Shown piece after piece: positions 51,357 to 64,000 of a stretch of DNA of 64,000 nt. The stretch is from a bacterium (GTDB lineage: Bacteria; Vulcanimicrobiota; JABDET01). Each line of letters begins with the position of its first letter. Positions within the stretch are counted from its first letter, which is position 1. The notes under the pieces are model-generated. The model made no database searches, was not told where the DNA came from, and saw only the letters and a program-made list of their open reading frames with translations. The stretch covers positions 1 to 64,000 of the forward strand of contig JAJYZB010000012.1 of assembly GCA_021800275.1 (NCBI GenBank). The letters run 5' to 3'. The translations under genes and the position numbers were made by a program.

Positions 51357-52238
51357 ATGGCGTTAAAAATTATTTCAGCCAGCAGAAGGACTGATATTCC
51401 GACTTTTTATGGGAAATGGTTCATGAATCGGATTGAGGCGGGATATGTTCAATATCGGAATCCATTCAATCAAAAACTGCATCTGGCTTCACTGAAACCT
51501 GAAGATGTTTTTTGCTTTGTGTTCTGGTCTAAAAATTTTAAGCCTTTTCTAAAATATTTGCCCCAGTTGGAGAAAAAAGGGTATTGTTTTTATTTCCATT
51601 ACACCATTACTGGATCTCACAGAATTTTCAATGAGCATGTGCCAGCCTGGGAAGAATCCGTTAAAACCTTTCAATTCCTGTCGAAGTGTTATGGTCCCGA
51701 AAAAATTATCTGGAGGTTTGATCCCATTGTCATCTCAGATCTAACTCCTTCTGAATATTATATTGAACTATTTAAGAAAATCTGTCAGTCTCTTGAGAGT
51801 TATACTGACAAATGCATGATTAGTTTTGTTTCCTATTATGGGAAGGTTCAGAGAAATTTCAGACTGCAGTCCCAAAAGAAACAAATTCTTTTTTATGAGC
51901 TTTTTTCTGAAGAAAAAAAAGCTCTTGCTGAAAAGTTAGCTGACACTGCTGCCGGATGCGGAATCCAATTAGAAGCCTGCTGCAGCGATTTTCTGGTTGG
52001 AAAAAAGATTAAAAAAGCTCGCTGCATTGATGCGGATCTTTTAAGTCGCTTTTTCTCTCAAAAAGAAGTTTTCAAAAAAAGAAAACCAACAAGGCAAGAG
52101 TGTGGATGCTCAGAAAGCGTTGATATTGGTGGATACAACACCTGTCCCCATGGCTGCGTGTACTGCTATGCTAATGCCAATCCTTATAATCCTCTCGACT
52201 ATTACAAATCTTTTTCTTCGGAGTCTGTTTTCTTATAA
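51357..52238 (+). CDS. DUF1848 family protein
   Basis: IISASRRTDIPTFYGKWFMNRI; C-terminal CGCSESVDIGGYNTCPHGCVYCYANANP. Confidence 0.88.
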   Translation: MALKIISASRRTDIPTFYGKWFMNRIEAGYVQYRNPFNQKLHLASLKPEDVFCFVFWSKNFKPFLKYLPQLEKKGYCFYFHYTITGSHRIFNEHVPAWEESVKTFQFLSKCYGPEKIIWRFDPIVISDLTPSEYYIELFKKICQSLESYTDKCMISFVSYYGKVQRNFRLQSQKKQILFYELFSEEKKALAEKLADTAAGCGIQLEACCSDFLVGKKIKKARCIDADLLSRFFSQKEVFKKRKPTRQECGCSESVDIGGYNTCPHGCVYCYANANPYNPLDYYKSFSSESVFL

Positions 52239-53107
52239 TGGAAGATTTTCATTCACAGCAAATTGTTCTTGAATTATCTGTTCTTGGTTCGGACAGAAAA
52301 GGGGTTGTTTCTGAAATAACGGGATATCTTTTTCGAAACAAAGGAAATATCGAGCAGATCACCCAAAACGTGGCAAATGATTGGTTTATGATGCATTTAG
52401 AAGCCTCGTTTCCGCGCAGTTCTTTTCAAAAAGAGGAATTTGAAAAAGGGCTTATGCGGGTCTCCAATTCTTTAAACATGGAGATCAAAATTCATTATCA
52501 AAAAAAAGAAAAAAAACGAATGGCAGTTTTTGTCACAAAAGAACTCCACTGTCTTCAAGCTATTTTAGAAGCCTTCAGGCAGAATCGTTTAAAAATTGAG
52601 ATTCCTCTCATTATCAGCAATCGAAGCGATTTAGCTCCACTTGCTGCTGAATACAAGATTGCGTTTTATAAAATCAGTTTCTCGGATCCGCAAAAACGCG
52701 AAAAAACTGTGATTTCTCTGTTAGAAAAAAACAATATTGATTTTATAGTGTTAGCAAGGTACATGAAAATTCTTTCCCCCTCTTTTGTCTGGAGATATCC
52801 CAATAGGATTATCAATATCCATCCCTCTCTGCTCCCTGCTTTTCCTGGGGCTTTTGCTTACACTCAGGCTTATGAACGGGGAGTAAAATTGGCGGGGTGT
52901 TCAGTGCATTTTGTAACTCCAGATTTAGATCAGGGACCTATTATCTGCCAGGATGCGTTTCAGATTTATCCCGAAGATACTTTGAAAACGATTCGTTCTA
53001 AAGGGCAGAAATTGGAAGCCCGTCTGCTTTTAAAAGGGATACATTTATTTTTAAAGGGAAAACTTGAAGTTTATTGGGGAAAAGTTAGACTCAAATCTAT
53101 TCAATAG
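52238..53107 (+). CDS. purU: Formyltetrahydrofolate deformylase (ACT + formyltransferase)
   Basis: ACT-like N-terminus; DFIVLARYMKILSP, INIHPSLLPAFPGAFAYTQAYERGVKLAGCSVHFVTPDLDQGPII. Confidence 0.92.
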   Translation: MEDFHSQQIVLELSVLGSDRKGVVSEITGYLFRNKGNIEQITQNVANDWFMMHLEASFPRSSFQKEEFEKGLMRVSNSLNMEIKIHYQKKEKKRMAVFVTKELHCLQAILEAFRQNRLKIEIPLIISNRSDLAPLAAEYKIAFYKISFSDPQKREKTVISLLEKNNIDFIVLARYMKILSPSFVWRYPNRIINIHPSLLPAFPGAFAYTQAYERGVKLAGCSVHFVTPDLDQGPIICQDAFQIYPEDTLKTIRSKGQKLEARLLLKGIHLFLKGKLEVYWGKVRLKSIQ

Positions 53108-53120
53108 GAAGGTCCTGGAA

Positions 53121-54434
53121 ATGGTGATTATGGAAAAAAGAAAAAGTTTGAAACCGCTTTTTTTCTTTTTTCTTTTTTCTTTTTTTTCTCTGCATTTTGT
53201 CCTAGCTAAACCAGTTGACAAGAAAAAGATATTAAGTTTAAAAGATTGTATAGCCCTTGGATTAAAAGATAAGCCAGGTCTAAAAGCTGCTCGAGAAAAC
53301 TTGAAAGCTTATCTGGCAGAGAAAGGGATGGCTTTAAGTTATTATTTTCCTGATCTTGAGATGGATTCCAATTATTTTCGCGGGAATTTTTTCCAGGTTG
53401 AAGGTCCGCTTTCAGAGATTTTCCCTGGAATTTTTACGGTATATGACACTCAATTCTCCGCCAATTATGTATTCGAAGATTTCGGCGAAAGATATGCCAT
53501 GGTTGGAAAAGCCGAGGCAAAAGTTGAACAAGCGTCTGCGGAATTTCAAAAAAAGCGACTGGCCGCTATTTTTCACATTTCAAAAGCATACTTCAATTTG
53601 CTTAAAGCGCAGACAGTTCTAAAATTAAGGAGAGATGATTTAAGGGCTGCCCAGAAGAATTTACTCCGCGCAGGAGTGCTTGTGCGCACAGGACAGAGGT
53701 CAAGAATCGTTTTATCTGAAGCCGAAGTTGCCTGCGATACCGCGCAGTACAATCTGCTGAGAGCAAAACACCAGATTGTGGATGCAGAGAATCATTTAAA
53801 TCAAGAGATGGGTCTTCCCAATTCTTCTCACTACCAGATCAAAAATGAAACTCATTTATTTTCAATCCATTTTAGTTTAGTGAAAGCCCTGGCTCTTGCT
53901 TTTCGCCTTAATCCCGATTTATTAGCTCAAAAAGCGAAAGTCAAAGAATCACAAGCAGAAATCGCTGAAGCCGCCGCGAAAAAATGGCCTGTTTTATCAG
54001 GGAGCGCCAGTTATGGCTGGGTTGATGAAGTTTTTCCTCCTAAATTTTCGACCTGGACTTTTGGAATATCTTTAAACTGGCCCTTTTTCAATGGTGGCCG
54101 TTTGAATGAAGAAATTTCTGCAGCTAAAGCTCTCAAAAAACGGGCAGAGGATAAAGAAAATGCTTTGATTTTAAGAATTGAGAATCGCATTGAACAGAAT
54201 TACATGGCTGTTAGAGACGCCCATGCCGAGTTAAAAGCCTCAAAGATTGAATATAAAGCGTCTGAAGAGAATTATCGCCTTGCTGTTGAAAGATATAAAT
54301 TTGGATTAGCTTCTTCAGTGAATCTGGCTTTTGCTCGAGCCAATCTTTCTCTTGCTGCTGTCCATCGGGCACAGGCGCAGTCCGATCTGCGAATATCTGA
54401 AGCAGCAGTGTATTATTCTATTGGACTGCCTTAG
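53121..54434 (+). CDS. TolC-family outer membrane protein (1)
   Basis: Signal peptide; LKDCIALGLKDKPGLKAAREN; coiled-coil repeats; start revised to the ATG at 53121. Confidence 0.85.
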   Translation: MVIMEKRKSLKPLFFFFLFSFFSLHFVLAKPVDKKKILSLKDCIALGLKDKPGLKAARENLKAYLAEKGMALSYYFPDLEMDSNYFRGNFFQVEGPLSEIFPGIFTVYDTQFSANYVFEDFGERYAMVGKAEAKVEQASAEFQKKRLAAIFHISKAYFNLLKAQTVLKLRRDDLRAAQKNLLRAGVLVRTGQRSRIVLSEAEVACDTAQYNLLRAKHQIVDAENHLNQEMGLPNSSHYQIKNETHLFSIHFSLVKALALAFRLNPDLLAQKAKVKESQAEIAEAAAKKWPVLSGSASYGWVDEVFPPKFSTWTFGISLNWPFFNGGRLNEEISAAKALKKRAEDKENALILRIENRIEQNYMAVRDAHAELKASKIEYKASEENYRLAVERYKFGLASSVNLAFARANLSLAAVHRAQAQSDLRISEAAVYYSIGLP

Positions 54435-54513: not shown

Positions 54514-55866
54514 ATGTTAATATTTTTAAATATTAAGAATTTTAAAGAGTTTCTTTCTCGCATGTCCATTTTTTCATTGGTTTTCGCGCTGACTGCCACT
54601 TTTTTCTTTGCCTTTCAGGTTTGCGCCGCTGCCCAGGGTGACTCTGGTTTAAGACAAGGAAACCAAACTTACACTTTAAATCAGTTGCTTCATATCGCAG
54701 TGCAGTATCACCCTCTTTTGAAAGAGGCGGAGGGGGTTATTCAGCAGGAAAAAGGGCTTGAAGGAGAAGCTTATTCCTCTTATTTCCCTCAGATCAACTT
54801 TCAGTCCAGTTATGAAAGGGCAAATGCTCTTGGAGGGCTTTTTGGAGCGACTATTCCTTTTACAGTTTATGATACCGGTGGAACTTTAAGCCAGCTCATC
54901 ACGGATTTTGGTCATACGGGCGCTCTAGTCCGCGCCAGTAAAGAGTCTTTGTTAGAGTCGCAGGAGAATTATAATTCCACTTTGCAGCAAATTTTGTTCA
55001 ATGTTTATCAGGCTTATTATCAAATTTTAGAGAATCATGCGGATCTCAAAGTTCAGGAAAGTTCAGTGACTGACTTAAAAAAACATTTAGGACAGGCTGA
55101 AGGGTTTTATCGGGTGGGGACTCAGCCTAAAATTGATGTGACTCAGGCTGAAGTTAATCTGACAAATGGCGAGTATGCTCTTGTTCAGGCGGAGAATAGT
55201 CTGGATATTGCCTGGACTAATCTTGCAGCAGCCGTAGGGAAACCGAATTTGAAACGTTTTAAGATCAATGATCAATTAAAATTTGAAAATTATCCGATGA
55301 CTCTTCAGAAAGCTCTAGAAACAGCTTATCATGTTCGTCCTGATTTTCTAGCCCTTGAGGCAGAAGTTAAAGCTCAGAAAGCGAATCTAGAAGCAGTCTC
55401 AAAACAGAATTATCCGGTTCTTTCGGGAAGCGCTGGATATGGATGGAGAAATTCTTTTTTCCCTCCTGGAACCGCTTTCTGGAATTTAGGTGTGAATTTA
55501 AATTTTCCTTTGTTTGATGGGTTTAAGGAAACCAGCCAAATTCAAACTGCCAAAGGGGTGGTGGATCAGATCCAGGCAGAACTGGATAATTTAAAGTTAA
55601 CGATTCATCAGGCTGTCCAGCAGGCGTTTTTAAATTTAAAAGCCTCTCGGACCAATTTAAAAGTGGCTGCAGCAGGCTTGAAATACGCTGCGGAAAATTT
55701 TCATCTGGCAGATGGGAGCTATCGAGTTGGGACCGCTAATTATTTGCAGTATGAAGACGCAGAAGTGGCTCTTGTGCAGGCAAAAACAAACTATATTCAG
55801 GCTTTGGCGAATTACAATATTGATGTCGCTTCTTTAAAGCAGGCGATGGGGGTTTTAAAACAGTGA
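54514..55866 (+). CDS. TolC-family outer membrane protein (2)
   Basis: TLNQLLHIAVQYHPLLKEAEGVI; long helical TolC-type body. Confidence 0.88.
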   Translation: MLIFLNIKNFKEFLSRMSIFSLVFALTATFFFAFQVCAAAQGDSGLRQGNQTYTLNQLLHIAVQYHPLLKEAEGVIQQEKGLEGEAYSSYFPQINFQSSYERANALGGLFGATIPFTVYDTGGTLSQLITDFGHTGALVRASKESLLESQENYNSTLQQILFNVYQAYYQILENHADLKVQESSVTDLKKHLGQAEGFYRVGTQPKIDVTQAEVNLTNGEYALVQAENSLDIAWTNLAAAVGKPNLKRFKINDQLKFENYPMTLQKALETAYHVRPDFLALEAEVKAQKANLEAVSKQNYPVLSGSAGYGWRNSFFPPGTAFWNLGVNLNFPLFDGFKETSQIQTAKGVVDQIQAELDNLKLTIHQAVQQAFLNLKASRTNLKVAAAGLKYAAENFHLADGSYRVGTANYLQYEDAEVALVQAKTNYIQALANYNIDVASLKQAMGVLKQ

Positions 55867-57233
55867 AAAAATGGTTCGTTTTAGTTATTCTTATTCTAGT
55901 TGTTTTGGGATTTTGGTTTTATCTCCATAGAAAAGACGGGGTGAACTATCAAACAGCAAAAGTAAAGGATGGTCCTCTTGTGGTCAAAGTGGAAGCTACT
56001 GGAGTATTGGATCCAGTTGGAAACACAACGGTAAATTCAGATGGAACTGTGACTGGTGGGATTACAGTTGGAGCTCAGGTGACTGGGTTGATCTCTAATG
56101 TTTATGTGGGATTTAATTCCCATGTTAAAAAAGGGGAGCTTTTAGCTTTAATTGACCCTCGCACATATCAGGAAATAGTGAACCAGGATGAAGCCAGTCT
56201 TGCCAGCGCTGAGGCAAATCTGGCTGTTTCCCAGACCAATGTGGAGAATGCTAAAGCTCTTTATGAACAAGATCTGGCAAATCAGAACAGCTTGATCGCT
56301 CAAGAAAAAAAGGATCAAGCGACTATGGATAATAATAAAATTAATTATCATCGGGAAATTATTCTGGTGAAAGAAAAATATGATTCAAGGCAGAATCTGG
56401 ACAACAGCTTATATGCGTATCTTGCCAGTAAAGCCCAGGTTGAATCCGATCAAGCGCTGATCCGTCAGGGAGAAGCTAAATTAACTTCAGCAAAAATTCA
56501 GATACAAACCGCATTAAAGCAGGTGCAGCTGCAGAGGGCAGTCATTCTTCAGGCAAAAGCCCGATTAGCTCAAGATCAGGCTAATCTGAATTACTGCAAA
56601 ATTGTTTCTCCTGTGAATGGAATTGTGATTGCCGTGAATACGGCTGTAGGACAGACCGTTGTTTCCAGCTTTCAAAGCCCGGATCTGTTTGTGATTGCAA
56701 AAAGTTTAAAAAGCATGCAGATTGATGCTCTTGTGGATGAAGCTGATATAGCCCAGATTCATAAAGGGCAGAGGGTCGAATTTCATGTGGATGCTTATCC
56801 TAATCAGTTGTTTATTGGGAAAGTTTATCAGATACGGAAAAATCCGATTGTGCAGTCAACTGTGGTTAATTATGATGTGATAGTATATGTCAAAAATCCA
56901 GGGGAAAAGCTGCTGCCTGGAATGACAGCAGACACTAATTTTATTGTGGCTCAGAAAAAGAGCGTTTTGGAGATTCCAAATCGAGCCCTTTTATTTACCC
57001 CTCCTTCTCCTTCTGGGTCTTCTAATTCAAGTCCATTTTATATCGCATCCCAGAAAAAAACAGTTCCCCATGTATGGATTTTAGAAAATGGAAAGTCGGT
57101 CCGCAGAAATTTGAAAACAGGACTTGCGAACAGTTCTTATACTCAAGTTTTATCAGGCGTAAAACCAGGGGAAGAAGTGATTATTGGGATAAAGTCCGCG
57201 AAAAAGCAGAGAAATCCGTTCACCACTTTTTAA
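55863..57233 (+). CDS. MacA-like periplasmic adaptor (HlyD/RND-type)
   Basis: VEATGVLDPVGNTTV, GAQVTGLISNVYVGFNSHVKKGELLALIDPRTYQ. Confidence 0.9.
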   Translation: MKKWFVLVILILVVLGFWFYLHRKDGVNYQTAKVKDGPLVVKVEATGVLDPVGNTTVNSDGTVTGGITVGAQVTGLISNVYVGFNSHVKKGELLALIDPRTYQEIVNQDEASLASAEANLAVSQTNVENAKALYEQDLANQNSLIAQEKKDQATMDNNKINYHREIILVKEKYDSRQNLDNSLYAYLASKAQVESDQALIRQGEAKLTSAKIQIQTALKQVQLQRAVILQAKARLAQDQANLNYCKIVSPVNGIVIAVNTAVGQTVVSSFQSPDLFVIAKSLKSMQIDALVDEADIAQIHKGQRVEFHVDAYPNQLFIGKVYQIRKNPIVQSTVVNYDVIVYVKNPGEKLLPGMTADTNFIVAQKKSVLEIPNRALLFTPPSPSGSSNSSPFYIASQKKTVPHVWILENGKSVRRNLKTGLANSSYTQVLSGVKPGEEVIIGIKSAKKQRNPFTTF

Positions 57234-57245
57234 GGAAGTTAATTC

Positions 57246-57926
57246 ATGAGCCTTATTCGCCTGGAAGAGATCAAAAAAGATTACCGTTTAGACGGAGTGA
57301 TTGTCCCTGCTCTGCAGGGAATAAATTTAGAGATTAATCAGGGGGAGTTTTTCTGCATGATGGGAGCCAGCGGCTCAGGAAAATCAACTTTAATGAATTT
57401 GATCAGCTGCATGGATCGTCCAACCAGCGGAAAATATATTTTAGAAGGAGAGGATGTGTCTCAACTGGATAAAAATGCCCTTGCTCATTTGCGAAATAAA
57501 ACGATAGGGCTCGTGTTTCAAAATTTTAATCTTCTCTCTTCTGCCACTGCCCTTGAGAATGTGGAACTTCCCCTTCTCTATGGAGGTGTGCCTGCTGTAG
57601 AAAGAGTTAAAACAGCGAAGCAGCTTCTTGAAAAAGTTGGTTTAGGTGACAGACTTCATCATTACCCCACACAGCTTTCAGGAGGACAGCAGCAGAGGGT
57701 TGCTATTGCCAGGGCTCTGGTCAACAGTCCAAAAATTTTAATGGCTGATGAACCGACCGGAAATTTGGATTCTCAGACCAGTGATGATATAATGGCTATG
57801 CTGACCCAGCTTAACAAAGATGGGTTGACAGTTATTCTGGTGACCCATGAGCCCGATGTGGCTAGGTACTCTAAACGGGTTGTTTTAATGAAAGACGGAA
57901 AGATCTTGAAAGAGGAAAAAAGATGA
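57246..57926 (+). CDS. ABC transporter ATPase (MacB/LolD type)
   Basis: Walker A GASGSGKSTLMN; signature LSGGQQQRVAIARAL; Walker B ILMADEPTGNLD. Confidence 0.96.
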   Translation: MSLIRLEEIKKDYRLDGVIVPALQGINLEINQGEFFCMMGASGSGKSTLMNLISCMDRPTSGKYILEGEDVSQLDKNALAHLRNKTIGLVFQNFNLLSSATALENVELPLLYGGVPAVERVKTAKQLLEKVGLGDRLHHYPTQLSGGQQQRVAIARALVNSPKILMADEPTGNLDSQTSDDIMAMLTQLNKDGLTVILVTHEPDVARYSKRVVLMKDGKILKEEKR

Positions 57927-59137
57927 ATTTTTTAAGTTTTTTAAAAGTGGCTTTAACGGCTATATCGCGCAATCGTTTAAGAGCTTTTTTAACCATTTTA
58001 GGAATTTTGATTGGAGTAGGGGCTGTGATTGCCATGATGGCTATTGGAAATGGAGCAAAAGCTAAGCTGGAAGCCCAGTTAAACAGCATGGGAACCAATA
58101 TGCTGTTTATTCATCCAGGAGCCATTACTGCAGGAGGAGTCAGACAGTGGGGAGCAGGGCAGAAATTTTATCCTTCAGATGTAAAAGCTGTCCGTCAAAA
58201 CTGTCCTGCTGTGGCTTATGCTGCTCCTTCTATTGAAAAGGTTGAGACTGCCACCACCGGTCATGAGAATTGGACCACCCAGATTATTGGCGTGGATCCG
58301 GATTATTTTATCATTCGAAACTGGAATGTGGCTGCAGGCAGATTAATTACCCATCAGGATGTTTCAGGAGGAGCTTTAGTTTGTTTGATCGGACAAACTG
58401 CCATGCAGAATCTTTTTGGGAGTGAAGATCCAATAGGAAAAATTGTCCAGATTAAAGATGTGCCTTTACGTGTTGTCGGAATTCTTGCGAAAAAAGGAGA
58501 AACCCCTTTTGGGCAGGACCAGGATGACTGTATTATGGTTCCTTACACCACGTTAATGAGAAGGATTATTGGAACCCCTAATATTGGAGGTTTGATGGTT
58601 TCTGCCACTTCTTCTAAAAATATTCCTGAAGCTGAAGCTGAAATTTCAGCTCTTCTTCGTCAGAGACATCATTTGGCTCCCTGGCAGCCGAATGATTTTA
58701 TGGTTATTTCCTTAAATTCTTTTGTGCAGATGAAAGAAGCTGCAACCAGTGTGATCATGCTGCTTTTAGGAAGTGTTGCAGGGATCTCTCTTCTGGTGGG
58801 AGGCATAGGGATCATGAATATTATGCTGGTGAGTGTGACAGAAAGAACCCGCGAGATTGGGATTAGGATGGCAGTTGGGGCAACAGAACAAGATATTTTG
58901 ATGCAGTTTCTCATTGAATCCCTTGCCCTGTCTATCGCTGGAGGGATTTTAGGAATGATTTTAGGGAGCGCTGCAGCCATTGTTATTTCAAAAGTGGCGG
59001 GATGGAATGTGGTCATTTCACCCAGCTCAATTATTTTAGCGTTTACTTTTTCGGCAGGCATCGGAATTTTCTTTGGTTATTATCCTGCCATGAAAGCCAG
59101 CCAACTGGATCCAATTGAGGCTCTGCGGTATCAATGA
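57923..59137 (+). CDS. ABC permease (MacB/FtsX type)
   Basis: ALTAISRNRLRAFLTILGILIGVGAVIAM; VTERTREIGIRMAVGA. Confidence 0.95.
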   Translation: MNFLSFLKVALTAISRNRLRAFLTILGILIGVGAVIAMMAIGNGAKAKLEAQLNSMGTNMLFIHPGAITAGGVRQWGAGQKFYPSDVKAVRQNCPAVAYAAPSIEKVETATTGHENWTTQIIGVDPDYFIIRNWNVAAGRLITHQDVSGGALVCLIGQTAMQNLFGSEDPIGKIVQIKDVPLRVVGILAKKGETPFGQDQDDCIMVPYTTLMRRIIGTPNIGGLMVSATSSKNIPEAEAEISALLRQRHHLAPWQPNDFMVISLNSFVQMKEAATSVIMLLLGSVAGISLLVGGIGIMNIMLVSVTERTREIGIRMAVGATEQDILMQFLIESLALSIAGGILGMILGSAAAIVISKVAGWNVVISPSSIILAFTFSAGIGIFFGYYPAMKASQLDPIEALRYQ

Positions 59138-60435
59138 AAAAAAGTTTTTTGATTTTACCGCTGTTGTTTTTTGCGTTCACTTCTTTTGTTCATGCTGCAG
59201 GCTTTCGGAAAATATACTCTCGCATCACTTTGAAACAGTGCGAGAAAATTGCTCTTTCTAAACAACCCGAACTTTTGATTGCTCGAGAGAAAGTTTTAGC
59301 TCAAAAAGGGGCTGTTGAAGTCGCTAAAAGCCAAATTTATCCTTTTCTTATTGGATCAGGAGAGTTTGTTCATAATACCCCAACCTTAAACGCGATTTTT
59401 GGTCCCTTTGTTTTTCCTATTGACGCAAACAATAGTTTTACGACTTCTCTTGAACTGCAGTATCCTTTATATAATGGGGGGAGACTTGGAAACAAAGTAA
59501 AGTTTGCCCGAAAAAATTTGTCCAGTATCAAATCTCAAGAGGGAGAAGTCAGGCTTTCAGTATTGTTAAATACAAGGATTTTTTATGAAAAAGCGATTTT
59601 AGCAAAAGAGATGCTGAAAACAGAGCGTTGGGATTATAATGGTCGGGCATTCAATGAAAATTCTTCTGAGGAGCTTTATAAAACAGGTCAGGTTCCCAAG
59701 TTGATTTATCGAAATTCTGTTATTTTATTAAGAAGGGCAAAAATAGATTTAATTAAAGCAGAGCTGCAGTATAAAAGCAGCCTGGATAATCTGGCTTTTG
59801 CTGTAGGATTAAACCCTGGAGAAATTAAATCTGTAAAAGGAAATTTTGTCAGAACTTTTTTCTTTCCCTCTTATCATCATCTGATTCAGAAAGCTTACCA
59901 GAATCGCCCCCTGATTAAAGAAGATGAAGCTAAATTAGAGGCTGAAGAGATACAGCTTAAGATCGCGAAATCCGTCAATTCTCCTAATATTTCTTTGTTT
60001 GCAGCTGAGACTTATTCCACCCGTCCTTTTGTTCCTTTTTTTCCGTACTATCAAAATCAAGCAGGGGTTAATGTTTCCTGGCCCTTCCACTGGGGGGAGC
60101 AGAATGGAGAAGTAAAACAAGCCCGAGCAGAAATTAGAGCTGCTCGGAATCAACTGCAAGAAGATAAAGAGCAGATTGCGGATCAAATCAAAGTGGCTTA
60201 TCGGAATGCAAAAGAAGCTTTTGAACAAGCGCAGTCCAGTATGTTGAATGTGCAGGCAGGCAGGAAAAGTTTTGATAATGCTCAAGCTGCATTTGCCAAT
60301 CAGCTTATTGACAGCGCCCAGTTAGATGAAACCACCAGTTTATTGGATCAAGCCCAGAGTGATTATTTAAATTCACTCTATCATTACGAAATCGCTTTAT
60401 CGGAACTGGAGTATGAAGAAGGGGATTTGAAGTGA
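59134..60435 (+). CDS. TolC-family outer membrane protein (3)
   Basis: ITLKQCEKIALSKQPELLIAREKV; TolC body. Confidence 0.85.
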   Translation: MKKSFLILPLLFFAFTSFVHAAGFRKIYSRITLKQCEKIALSKQPELLIAREKVLAQKGAVEVAKSQIYPFLIGSGEFVHNTPTLNAIFGPFVFPIDANNSFTTSLELQYPLYNGGRLGNKVKFARKNLSSIKSQEGEVRLSVLLNTRIFYEKAILAKEMLKTERWDYNGRAFNENSSEELYKTGQVPKLIYRNSVILLRRAKIDLIKAELQYKSSLDNLAFAVGLNPGEIKSVKGNFVRTFFFPSYHHLIQKAYQNRPLIKEDEAKLEAEEIQLKIAKSVNSPNISLFAAETYSTRPFVPFFPYYQNQAGVNVSWPFHWGEQNGEVKQARAEIRAARNQLQEDKEQIADQIKVAYRNAKEAFEQAQSSMLNVQAGRKSFDNAQAAFANQLIDSAQLDETTSLLDQAQSDYLNSLYHYEIALSELEYEEGDLK

Positions 60436-62042
60436 AGGGTTATTTTACACGATCTTTTTTCATTTTGTCAGGGATGATACTGGTTGGATTCGTTCTTTTG
60501 GGACAGTTTTTTTTCCCTGGTGGCAGAGTTTCAGCCCGAACTCTCTTTAGGTCAACTGGGTCTCATCATTTTATGTGGAAGAAGGGGGCAAAAAATCGCA
60601 GCAGCTCAAATGCTTGTTTGAAATGTCATGTGATTCCAGGGATAAGACATAGCATTATGTGGAGAGTTTTTTCGCGTAATTTGAAAGAGGGGAAATTTCC
60701 TCAGTATCACCACAATGCCTGTTTGTTCTGCCATATCAGGCATGAACTCCCTGTTCCTCCTCGAATCACACATTTTGCTTTTTTAAGACATGCGACCATT
60801 GGCGGGGTTACAGCAGTTCATACGCTCTGCCAGAAATGTCATACTTCTCCTGAACACCATCCGATTATTCAAGCCCCTGATATCCAAAATCAGTTTGAAA
60901 AATTTTATGTAGGCGGATCAGCCATGCCCTTGATTTTCCCTGGGCACAAAGTATTTATTGGAAAACACCCGCAGGAAAGCGTTTTATTAGGAAGTAAATT
61001 AAAAGAGTTTCCTCATATAGAATGCACAGACTGCCATAATGCTCATCTTGCCACTCGGGCAGAACCTTTAAGAGGGGCAAAAGGAATTATGGATATTAAT
61101 GGAAAACCTGTGGCAGTTGGATTTGGGACTGCTCATCCACTCATGAATCCTCCTGTTTATGCAATTTGTTTTCGCTGCCATGGACCAACCTATCAGTGGA
61201 TAACCCCTTATCCTGATCCCCCGTATGATATGTTTCCACCTGGATATACGAATCAATTTAAAGAGTTTAATCCAAAAAGCCGTATGTTTCTGCAGCCCAA
61301 TTTAAGAAATACTTCCTGGATGCCTGTAGTTTATCCAGGGAAAAATAAGTCTAAAGGGCTGAACTGGCAGCTGACAACTGCGACTCATGGGGAATTAAAT
61401 GTGCATTCAACCATAGAATGCACAGACTGTCACAACAATAATGCTTTTTCAAAAGTTCATGGGCGTGTTCTGCTTTCCATGGGAAGTTATAAAGATCCAG
61501 CAGGCCCTCATGGTTCTATTTATCATCGGATTTTAAGGGCTCCTTACACTTTTAAGGTGGGAACAGCCACTCGTTCTCCTTTTACCCAGTACAATCCTAA
61601 AAATTTTGCTCTATGTTTTAACTGCCACAATGAAAAAGCGTTTGATGGAGGCAGATGGGATAAGCATACAGGGTTTTATTCTAAAAAGTTTGGTAATTTG
61701 CATTATCTGCATTTAACTGGAGAAGGGGGAAAACTGCCGGCGTATGAATCCTGCGCTGAGTGTCATTATGATGTTCACAGCAATGTGATGACTGATACGA
61801 CGTTTTTTATTTTTCACGGAATTTCTCGGAAGAGTCAGGATACTCATCTGCTCTGGTTTTATCCAGGAGTTAAAGGAGTGGGAAATCAATTTTTAAGAAC
61901 TCTTGGTTATCAAAATGAAATACTGGGTTATAAAAATGCAGCAGATCACCCGATCTGGATAAAGAATGCAATGCATGCAACCTGTCTCATGGTTTGTCAT
62001 GATCATGTCATGGATTTTCACTACGGAGGTCCCCAGAAATGA
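60432..62042 (+). CDS. Multiheme c-type cytochrome (8 CXXCH plus one CX3CH)
   Basis: CLKCH, CLFCH, CQKCH, CTDCH, CFRCH, CTDCH, CFNCH, CAECH, and CLMVCH near the C-terminus; N-terminal TM/signal. Confidence 0.92.
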   Translation: MKGYFTRSFFILSGMILVGFVLLGQFFFPGGRVSARTLFRSTGSHHFMWKKGAKNRSSSNACLKCHVIPGIRHSIMWRVFSRNLKEGKFPQYHHNACLFCHIRHELPVPPRITHFAFLRHATIGGVTAVHTLCQKCHTSPEHHPIIQAPDIQNQFEKFYVGGSAMPLIFPGHKVFIGKHPQESVLLGSKLKEFPHIECTDCHNAHLATRAEPLRGAKGIMDINGKPVAVGFGTAHPLMNPPVYAICFRCHGPTYQWITPYPDPPYDMFPPGYTNQFKEFNPKSRMFLQPNLRNTSWMPVVYPGKNKSKGLNWQLTTATHGELNVHSTIECTDCHNNNAFSKVHGRVLLSMGSYKDPAGPHGSIYHRILRAPYTFKVGTATRSPFTQYNPKNFALCFNCHNEKAFDGGRWDKHTGFYSKKFGNLHYLHLTGEGGKLPAYESCAECHYDVHSNVMTDTTFFIFHGISRKSQDTHLLWFYPGVKGVGNQFLRTLGYQNEILGYKNAADHPIWIKNAMHATCLMVCHDHVMDFHYGGPQK

Positions 62043-63262
62043 AAGATGCCTTAAGAAAATTTTCTTTTGTGGTTTTAGGAGTCGTGATCATTGGATTGAT
62101 CTTTTATGGAATAGATCGCTACTTTTTTGCGGGAAGGGTGTCCACAGAAGATGCTCGTGTGGACAGCCATCTGGTTTTTATAAGCCCCAGAATTTCAGGA
62201 AAAGTTACAAAAGTCCTGGTCCGCAATCATGAATTAGTAAAACCTGGGCAGCCTCTTGTTCTCCTCAGCACAGCCGATTATAAAACAAAACTACAAGCAG
62301 CAGAATCTAATTTAAATCGTTTTAAAAAAATCCTGGCTGCCGATCGTTTGAATGTCCCGATCAGCCGTATATCCACATCAGGAACTATGAATCGAGTTGG
62401 AGCCATGCTTTTAGCCGCAGGATCGAATCAAGAGAAACTGAATCGAATTGTGGCTGAAGTAAGATCCAGAATCATTCAGTTAAAAGCGAATTTAATTTCT
62501 GCAAAGTCCAGATATAATTTAGCAAAATCTAATTATGATCGAATGAAATTATTAATTCGGAATTATATTGCTTCTCAAGAGCAGTATGATTCTTTTAAAA
62601 CGCAGTATGAAAACGCGAAAGCGGATTTAATTTCAGCAAAAGCTCAATTAGTTTCAGCTCAAGAAGAATTGAAACAGCAGCTGGCAGCCCTTCAAGAAGT
62701 TAAATATCAGTTTAAAGCCGCAAAAGCCCAGGTATTTGTCGCTTCAGCAGGACCTGTACAGGTTCAAATGCAGGAACAAAAAGTGGCTGCTGATGCACAG
62801 GCAGTTAAACAGGCTGAAGCTGAAGTTCGTCTGGCTAAATTAAAATTGTCTTATACAACGATAAAGGCTCCTAAAGAAGGGATTGTGACCAGACGCCAGG
62901 TTACAGTTGGGGCTGTGGTAGCAAGAGGGCAGACTCTGCTGCTTCTGGCTCCTGTAGGAAAAAGTCTCTGGGTAAGAGCCGATTTTAGAGAGACTGCTTT
63001 AACCCGGATGAAGCCAGGGGACAGAGTCAATATTACAGTTGACACGTTTCCTGGGAAAGTTTATAAAGGCATTGTGAATTCAGTCAGCGGAGCCACTGGA
63101 GCAGCAACCAGTCTTTTTCCTCCTGAGAATGCCAGCGGTAATTTTGTTAAAATTGTCCAGAGGATACCGGTTAAAATCACTTTTGCTCCTGACCAGAATC
63201 TCAATGGACTTTTAACAGGAATGTCGGCTGAAGTAACGGTTTTTCTCCATTCAAAATCATGA
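62039..63262 (+). CDS. EmrA-like HlyD-family membrane fusion protein
   Basis: RVSTEDARVDSHLVFISPRISGKVTKVLVRNHELVKPGQPLVLL. Confidence 0.92.
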   Translation: MKDALRKFSFVVLGVVIIGLIFYGIDRYFFAGRVSTEDARVDSHLVFISPRISGKVTKVLVRNHELVKPGQPLVLLSTADYKTKLQAAESNLNRFKKILAADRLNVPISRISTSGTMNRVGAMLLAAGSNQEKLNRIVAEVRSRIIQLKANLISAKSRYNLAKSNYDRMKLLIRNYIASQEQYDSFKTQYENAKADLISAKAQLVSAQEELKQQLAALQEVKYQFKAAKAQVFVASAGPVQVQMQEQKVAADAQAVKQAEAEVRLAKLKLSYTTIKAPKEGIVTRRQVTVGAVVARGQTLLLLAPVGKSLWVRADFRETALTRMKPGDRVNITVDTFPGKVYKGIVNSVSGATGAATSLFPPENASGNFVKIVQRIPVKITFAPDQNLNGLLTGMSAEVTVFLHSKS

Positions 63263-63274
63263 GGATTCTATGAG

Positions 63275-64000
63275 ATGGATCAGAGCGGGCAGCAGGCTGT
63301 AGAACTTTCAGGAGAGCAGCAGAATCCAAGGAGAAAAATTAATCCTTGGATTATAACTTTTGCAGTCATGCTGGGGACTTCGATTGAAGTTCTGGATACT
63401 TCTATCGCCAATGTCGCTTTACCTCATATTGCAGGGAGTCTTTCAGTAACCCCAGATGAGGCAACCTGGGTCTTAACCAGTTATCTTATTTCGAATGGGA
63501 TTGTTCTCCCTATTGCTGCCTGGCTGTCTCGAAGATTTGGTCGAAAACGTTATTTTATCGTCAGCATCATTATTTTTACGATCTCTTCAGCTCTGTGCGG
63601 ACTTGCTCCAAGTTTGAGTTTCCTCATTTTCTTTAGAGTTTTGCAGGGATTAGGTGGAGGAGGACTTCAGCCTTCCAGTCAGGCGATTTTATTGGAGACT
63701 TTTCCTCTGGAAAAAAGAGGGCAGGGGATGGCTGCTTATGGATTAGGGATTGTGCTGGCTCCTATGCTGGGACCAGTGATTGGAGGCTGGATTACAGATC
63801 ATTATACCTGGCGCTGGATCTTTTATGTCAATGTGCCGGTTGGCATCATTGCAGTTCTGCTTATTTCTTTATTTGTTTTTGATCCTCATTATTTGAAAAG
63901 AGTCAAAGAGCCGGTGGATTATCTGGGATTGGGTTTTCTTGCCATTGGAATCGCATTTTTACAGTACTGTTTAGATAAAGGGGAAGAACTGGGTTGGCTT
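63275..64000 (+). CDS. DHA2-family MFS transporter, EmrB/QacA type (truncated by window end)
   Basis: Translation MDQSGQQAVELSGEQQNPRRKINPWIITFAVMLGTSIEVLDTSIANVALPHIAGSLSVTPDEATWVLTSYLISNGIVLPIAAWLSRRFGRKRYF...; open to the end, not in the ORF track. Confidence 0.93.
   Translation, partial: MDQSGQQAVELSGEQQNPRRKINPWIITFAVMLGTSIEVLDTSIANVALPHIAGSLSVTPDEATWVLTSYLISNGIVLPIAAWLSRRFGRKRYFIVSIIIFTISSALCGLAPSLSFLIFFRVLQGLGGGGLQPSSQAILLETFPLEKRGQGMAAYGLGIVLAPMLGPVIGGWITDHYTWRWIFYVNVPVGIIAVLLISLFVFDPHYLKRVKEPVDYLGLGFLAIGIAFLQYCLDKGEELGWL

Follow-up and report, generated by a model that had tools for sequence, protein, structure and literature searches.

A gene for a nine-heme c-type cytochrome lies, in the 64,000-nucleotide stretch of DNA analysed here (the window), within an array of genes for two tripartite efflux pumps. 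We tentatively interpret this array as one selected and co-expressed unit, in which two pumps are produced along with a cytochrome that is exported to the periplasm and would serve the substrate of the EmrAB-TolC3 pump. The evidence comes from the anatomy of the operon, its conservation within the genus, the purifying selection acting on the cytochrome and the absence of the cytochrome from relatives of the pumps.

Organization of the gene array

Open reading frames and matches to Pfam and NCBIfam profiles define ten genes in the order TolC1-TolC2-MacA-MacB(ATPase)-MacB(permease)-TolC3-cytochrome-EmrA-EmrB1-EmrB2, which occupy the contig from ~53121 to 66463, with a 3' end past the window (Table 1). 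A preliminary description of this DNA had listed an operon extending from TolC2 to EmrB. The genes listed are real, and the profiles (OEP, MacA, MacB_PCD, EmrA/EmrK and EmrB) agree with the identities given to them, but the array starts one TolC gene earlier and ends with a second EmrB gene. The listed ORF for TolC1 opens at a TTG codon (53064), although an ATG at 53121 or 53130 is the likelier start.

Table 1. Genes of the array, with positions on the contig and the matches on which the assignments are based
Gene	Position	Strand	Product	Evidence
TolC1	53121..54434	+	outer membrane efflux protein, first array gene	OEP, E 1.3e-57; ortholog is first array gene in the second species (L005)
TolC2	54514..55866	+	outer membrane efflux protein of MacAB half	OEP, E 1.9e-66
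MacA	55863..57233	+	MacA-like periplasmic adaptor	HlyD_D23, RND_mfp and MacA profiles
MacB (ATPase)	57246..57926	+	MacB-type ABC ATPase, gene apart from permease	Walker A/signature motifs; 65% identity to counterpart in sister genus (G002)
MacB (permease)	57923..59137	+	MacB-type permease	MacB_PCD, E 1.8e-52; FtsX, E 3.4e-20
TolC3	59134..60435	+	outer membrane efflux protein of EmrAB half	OEP, E 2.5e-45
Cytochrome	60432..62042	+	nine-heme c-type cytochrome, 536 aa	motif scan; Paired_CXXCH_1, E 3.5e-06 (weak)
EmrA	62039..63262	+	EmrA-like periplasmic adaptor	TIGR00998 (EmrA/EmrK), E 8.1e-59
EmrB1	63275..64000 in window, to 64873 on contig	+	DHA2-family MFS exporter	TIGR00711, E 2.2e-81
EmrB2	64925-66463, outside window		second tandem EmrB	contig ORFs

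All five of the 4-bp overlaps reported earlier are present (55863/55866, 57923/57926, 59134/59137, 60432/60435 and 62039/62042), and the last two of these, shared with TolC3 and EmrA respectively, bracket the cytochrome gene. Since the gene is overlapped on both sides, there is no room for a terminator or for a promoter of its own; scans of the array for promoter- and terminator-like sites revealed no excess over shuffled controls. The earlier claim of a multiheme cytochrome within a translationally coupled double pump operon is supported.

The MacAB half contains everything expected of a MacAB-TolC exporter, namely a MacA adaptor, the MacB periplasmic core, an FtsX permease, an ATPase and an OEP protein. 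In the other half, profiles and alignment identify an adaptor of the EmrA/EmrK family adjoining a DHA2-type EmrB; the adaptor scores 199 bits against TIGR00998, below the curated subfamily cut-off of 391, and the in-window part of EmrB1 scores 274 bits against TIGR00711, above the cut-off of 230. The two tandem EmrB genes share the one EmrA. No genes for the biosynthesis of an electron shuttle were found within the array, and the same is true of genes for heme synthesis or cytochrome maturation.

The latter result bears on the idea that the operon handles heme or porphyrin, with the MacAB half expelling excess porphyrin and the cytochrome being co-expressed because a greater need for heme goes along with more porphyrin overflow. 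The MacAB-TolC system of E. coli does expel protoporphyrin (PMC4263509), and the genome studied here is heme-hungry, but an array with no heme synthesis or maturation gene, in which the cytochrome adjoins EmrA rather than MacAB, makes this an improbable explanation.

Directly upstream of the array and on the same strand (51357-53107), a DUF1848 gene overlaps by 1 bp a gene for an ACT-formyltransferase (PurU-like). A further DUF1848-like protein is encoded elsewhere in the same genome (L021, 4568-5575, on G000:C30).

The cytochrome protein

Eight CxxCH heme motifs (at residues 62, 97, 133, 198, 246, 330, 395 and 441) and a ninth of the form CX3CH (CLMVCH, residue 518) account for all 18 cysteines of the protein, none of which lies outside a motif. 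These motifs and a single N-terminal hydrophobic stretch (residues ~8-29) characterize the product as a multiheme c-type cytochrome. The preliminary description called it signal-anchored; the hydrophobic stretch is there, and it could mark the protein for export either as a cleavable signal or as an anchor. The nine motifs are all kept in the cytochrome of the second species described below, and 33 of 40 histidines are conserved between the two proteins. Nine of these are the proximal ligands, and the other 24 are candidate distal ligands, a number that would be enough for bis-His coordination.

The protein is not a member of the MtrA/DmsE decaheme family: the best match to TIGR03508 has an E value of 0.0079 (range 0.008-0.5), and the window cytochrome scores 9.8 bits where the cut-off is 192.2. 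A sequence search of the PDB returned only non-significant NapB/NrfH fragments. An AlphaFold2 model built on the two-row alignment was discarded (pLDDT 27).

Conservation of the array within the genus

A scan of 84,980 species genomes for close relatives yielded a single matching locus, L005 (isolate YP4.bin17), which belongs to the single further genome that represents the genus. All ten genes are present there in identical order, and the cytochrome gene is again overlapped by 4 bp on each side. The surroundings are different. On the left, the DUF1848 and formyltransferase genes of the window are replaced in L005 by type II secretion/pilin genes, one of which, a secretion gene, has only a distant match in the window genome (31% at best), and the right flanks also differ. 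The DUF1848/formyltransferase pair shows no linkage to the array in L005. Because the ten-gene order is kept while both flanks differ, the block has been held together as its surroundings were rearranged, and an arrangement repeated gene for gene in this manner is not a matter of chance. The preliminary description had proposed a search for conserved gene order, with a cytochrome unlinked to the pumps in related genomes counting against the operon; the linkage persists in this second genome of the genus.

The two cytochromes are 81.5% identical and the reading frames are intact in both species. The dN/dS ratio of the cytochrome is 0.098, as compared with 0.05-0.18 for the pump proteins, which places it at a level comparable to MacA, EmrA and EmrB2 and below all three TolC proteins; dS between the two species is 0.9-1.3, near saturation. 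A ratio of ~0.10 means that the cytochrome is a selected part of the unit, and by this measure it is under strong purifying selection. Some of the conservation could reflect shared ancestry, as the comparison involves two genomes of one genus, though dS reaches ~1.3.

An in-frame tandem DNA repeat (L005 11500-11730; L008) occurs at the 3' end of the cytochrome gene of the second species, where it lengthens the protein by a low-complexity tail. Copies of this repeat are also scattered over a different contig, G001:C38, of the same genome.

Distribution outside the genus and origin of the array

A profile made from both cytochromes detected no homologue in the 147 other genomes of a 149-genome sample of the phylum, and the plasmid and viral collections contained no relatives of the protein. 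At the sensitivity of the profile search within the phylum, and of the close-relative scan beyond it, the cytochrome appears to be specific to the genus. In G002, the sister genus within the family (67% complete), the pumps occur as two separate operons, TolC-MacA-MacB-MacB and TolC-EmrA-EmrB, with no cytochrome in either; the MacAB half is 45-65% identical to its counterpart in the window, and the TolC adjacent to MacAB is 47% identical to TolC2. Similarly, in other genomes of the phylum, the surroundings of 20 EmrA genes contained no ORF with at least two heme motifs and no MacAB. Since the same pump types exist without the cytochrome, both in G002 and at other loci of the phylum, these pumps as such do not depend on it.

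Restriction to one genus is also what might be expected if the cytochrome gene were a neutral insertion with no role at this site. Against such an origin stand the strong purifying selection, the intact frames and the overlaps preserved in both species; the dN/dS value of ~0.1 largely refutes it, and we find it scarcely credible.

Phylogenetic trees place the tandem duplication that gave rise to EmrB1 and EmrB2 before the split of the two species. EmrB groups with the sister genus with weak support, and the EmrA proteins of the genus are set on a long stem. The simplest history would have an ancestor of the genus fuse two pump operons, duplicate EmrB and gain the cytochrome gene between TolC3 and EmrA.

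Electron-transfer setting and proposed function

The window genome contains 262 CxxCH-coding motifs as compared to 55 for the reversed pattern, an excess of ~200, and its contigs C18 and C33 bear MtrA-like decahemes, MtrB_PioB porins (E ~1e-52) and molybdopterin oxidoreductase modules. Such richness in cytochromes, together with conduits of the MtrA/MtrB type, means that this organism could plausibly move electrons across its envelope.

The two modules (L020 7618-15370 on G000:C18 and L023 1197-8802 on G000:C33) each combine an MtrA-like multiheme cytochrome and an MtrB_PioB porin, and they also hold monoheme and five-heme cytochromes, a molybdopterin oxidoreductase and a ferredoxin-like protein; they are porin-cytochrome conduits joined to a molybdoenzyme complex. 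Two further loci (L021 5667-9462 on G000:C30 and L022 7847-11637 on G000:C32) encode MtrA-like decahemes, each adjoining an exported-looking protein of 929-959 aa. These proteins had no match in Pfam and possibly represent an undescribed type of porin paired with a decaheme.

A comparable pairing can be imagined in the array itself, with TolC3 taking the role for the nine-heme cytochrome that MtrB takes for MtrA in an outer membrane electron conduit. The two proteins are translationally coupled neighbours, and TolC3 is divergent from the other TolC proteins of the phylum (24% identity to its best match outside the genus). Nevertheless, TolC3 is an OEP-family protein of normal length encoded near a canonical EmrA, and elsewhere the genome already supplies genuine MtrB_PioB porins partnered by decahemes, so that we judged this candidate very unlikely.

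An alternative that also fits this setting is co-regulation alone: a periplasmic carrier that takes part in respiration or in electron transfer to the exterior would have been recruited to a stress or envelope operon and would share its expression, while having nothing to do functionally with the pumps or with what they export. A genome full of multiheme cytochromes and MtrA/MtrB modules, relatives whose pumps lack a cytochrome, and an array that looks as though it was built from two pump operons that are separate in the sister genus are all in keeping with this possibility, and a role in general electron transfer would suit the cytochrome just as well. On the other hand, the gene is not at an end of the operon. 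It is enclosed within one pump by TolC3 and EmrA, sharing 4 bp with each, and it has kept that position while both flanks of the array changed. We consider a periplasm-facing electron-transfer partner, co-produced with the pumps, to be the most likely identity of the cytochrome, and simple co-regulation to be nearly as likely.

In the scheme that we infer for the location of the cytochrome, the flow of electrons and the redox nature of the substrate, MacAB would form the first pump with TolC2/TolC1, and EmrA would form the second with the two EmrB proteins and TolC3. Coupled translation would keep synthesis of the cytochrome in step with that of TolC3 and EmrA. Free in the periplasm or attached to the inner membrane, the cytochrome might pass electrons to or from a redox-active or redox-toxic small molecule that is expelled by EmrAB-TolC3, and the molecule would thereby be linked to the MtrA/MtrB-type electron chain of the cell. 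The conserved ten-gene order hints at cooperation between electron transfer and export in this bacterium. A more specific version, in which the cytochrome is a dedicated subunit or partner of EmrAB-TolC and either controls whether the exported molecule leaves in oxidized or reduced form or uses that molecule to unload electrons outside the cell, seems to us rather unlikely. Pumps with cargo of this general kind do exist: a tolC-like pump of Shewanella moderates the toxicity of the shuttle AQDS and is needed when AQDS is handled (PMC5109470), and MexGHI-OpmD acts on a redox-active phenazine (PMC10333786). The structural claim of the preliminary description holds, and the redox-active export or respiration-tied efflux that it proposed is compatible with these precedents and with the cytochrome-rich, MtrA/MtrB-bearing genome.

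Among the open-access papers searched, we found none describing a multiheme cytochrome in one operon with EmrA, MacB or HlyD pump genes. Exporters of electron shuttles are, to our knowledge, mostly unknown. Should the cytochrome act on the cargo of the pump, the operon would tie efflux directly to envelope electron transfer at the genetic level, and would open a way to study the release of electron shuttles by cells. It is also a compact set of genes with which such a link might be tested in a laboratory host.

Comparison with known systems

The proposed export of a redox-active small molecule resembles the activities of MexGHI-OpmD (PMC10333786) and of the TolC-type AQDS efflux of Shewanella (PMC5109470) by analogy only, since those are RND or TolC systems whose operons have no cytochrome. 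Like the MtrA/DmsE decahemes of porin-cytochrome complexes, the array protein is an exported multiheme c-type cytochrome, but it has nine motifs, including one CX3CH, and its gene is flanked by those for an OEP (TolC) protein and an HlyD/EmrA protein, with no MtrB/PioB-type porin beside it. With the MacAB-TolC ABC exporter, the array shares an adaptor, the MacB periplasmic core with an FtsX domain and a TolC encoded in the same operon; it differs in dividing ATPase and permease between two genes and in its combination with a second pump and a cytochrome. Finally, the canonical EmrA adaptor and DHA2-type EmrB are those of an EmrAB-TolC MFS exporter, to which the array adds a TolC of its own within the operon, two EmrB genes in tandem and, between TolC3 and EmrA, the cytochrome.
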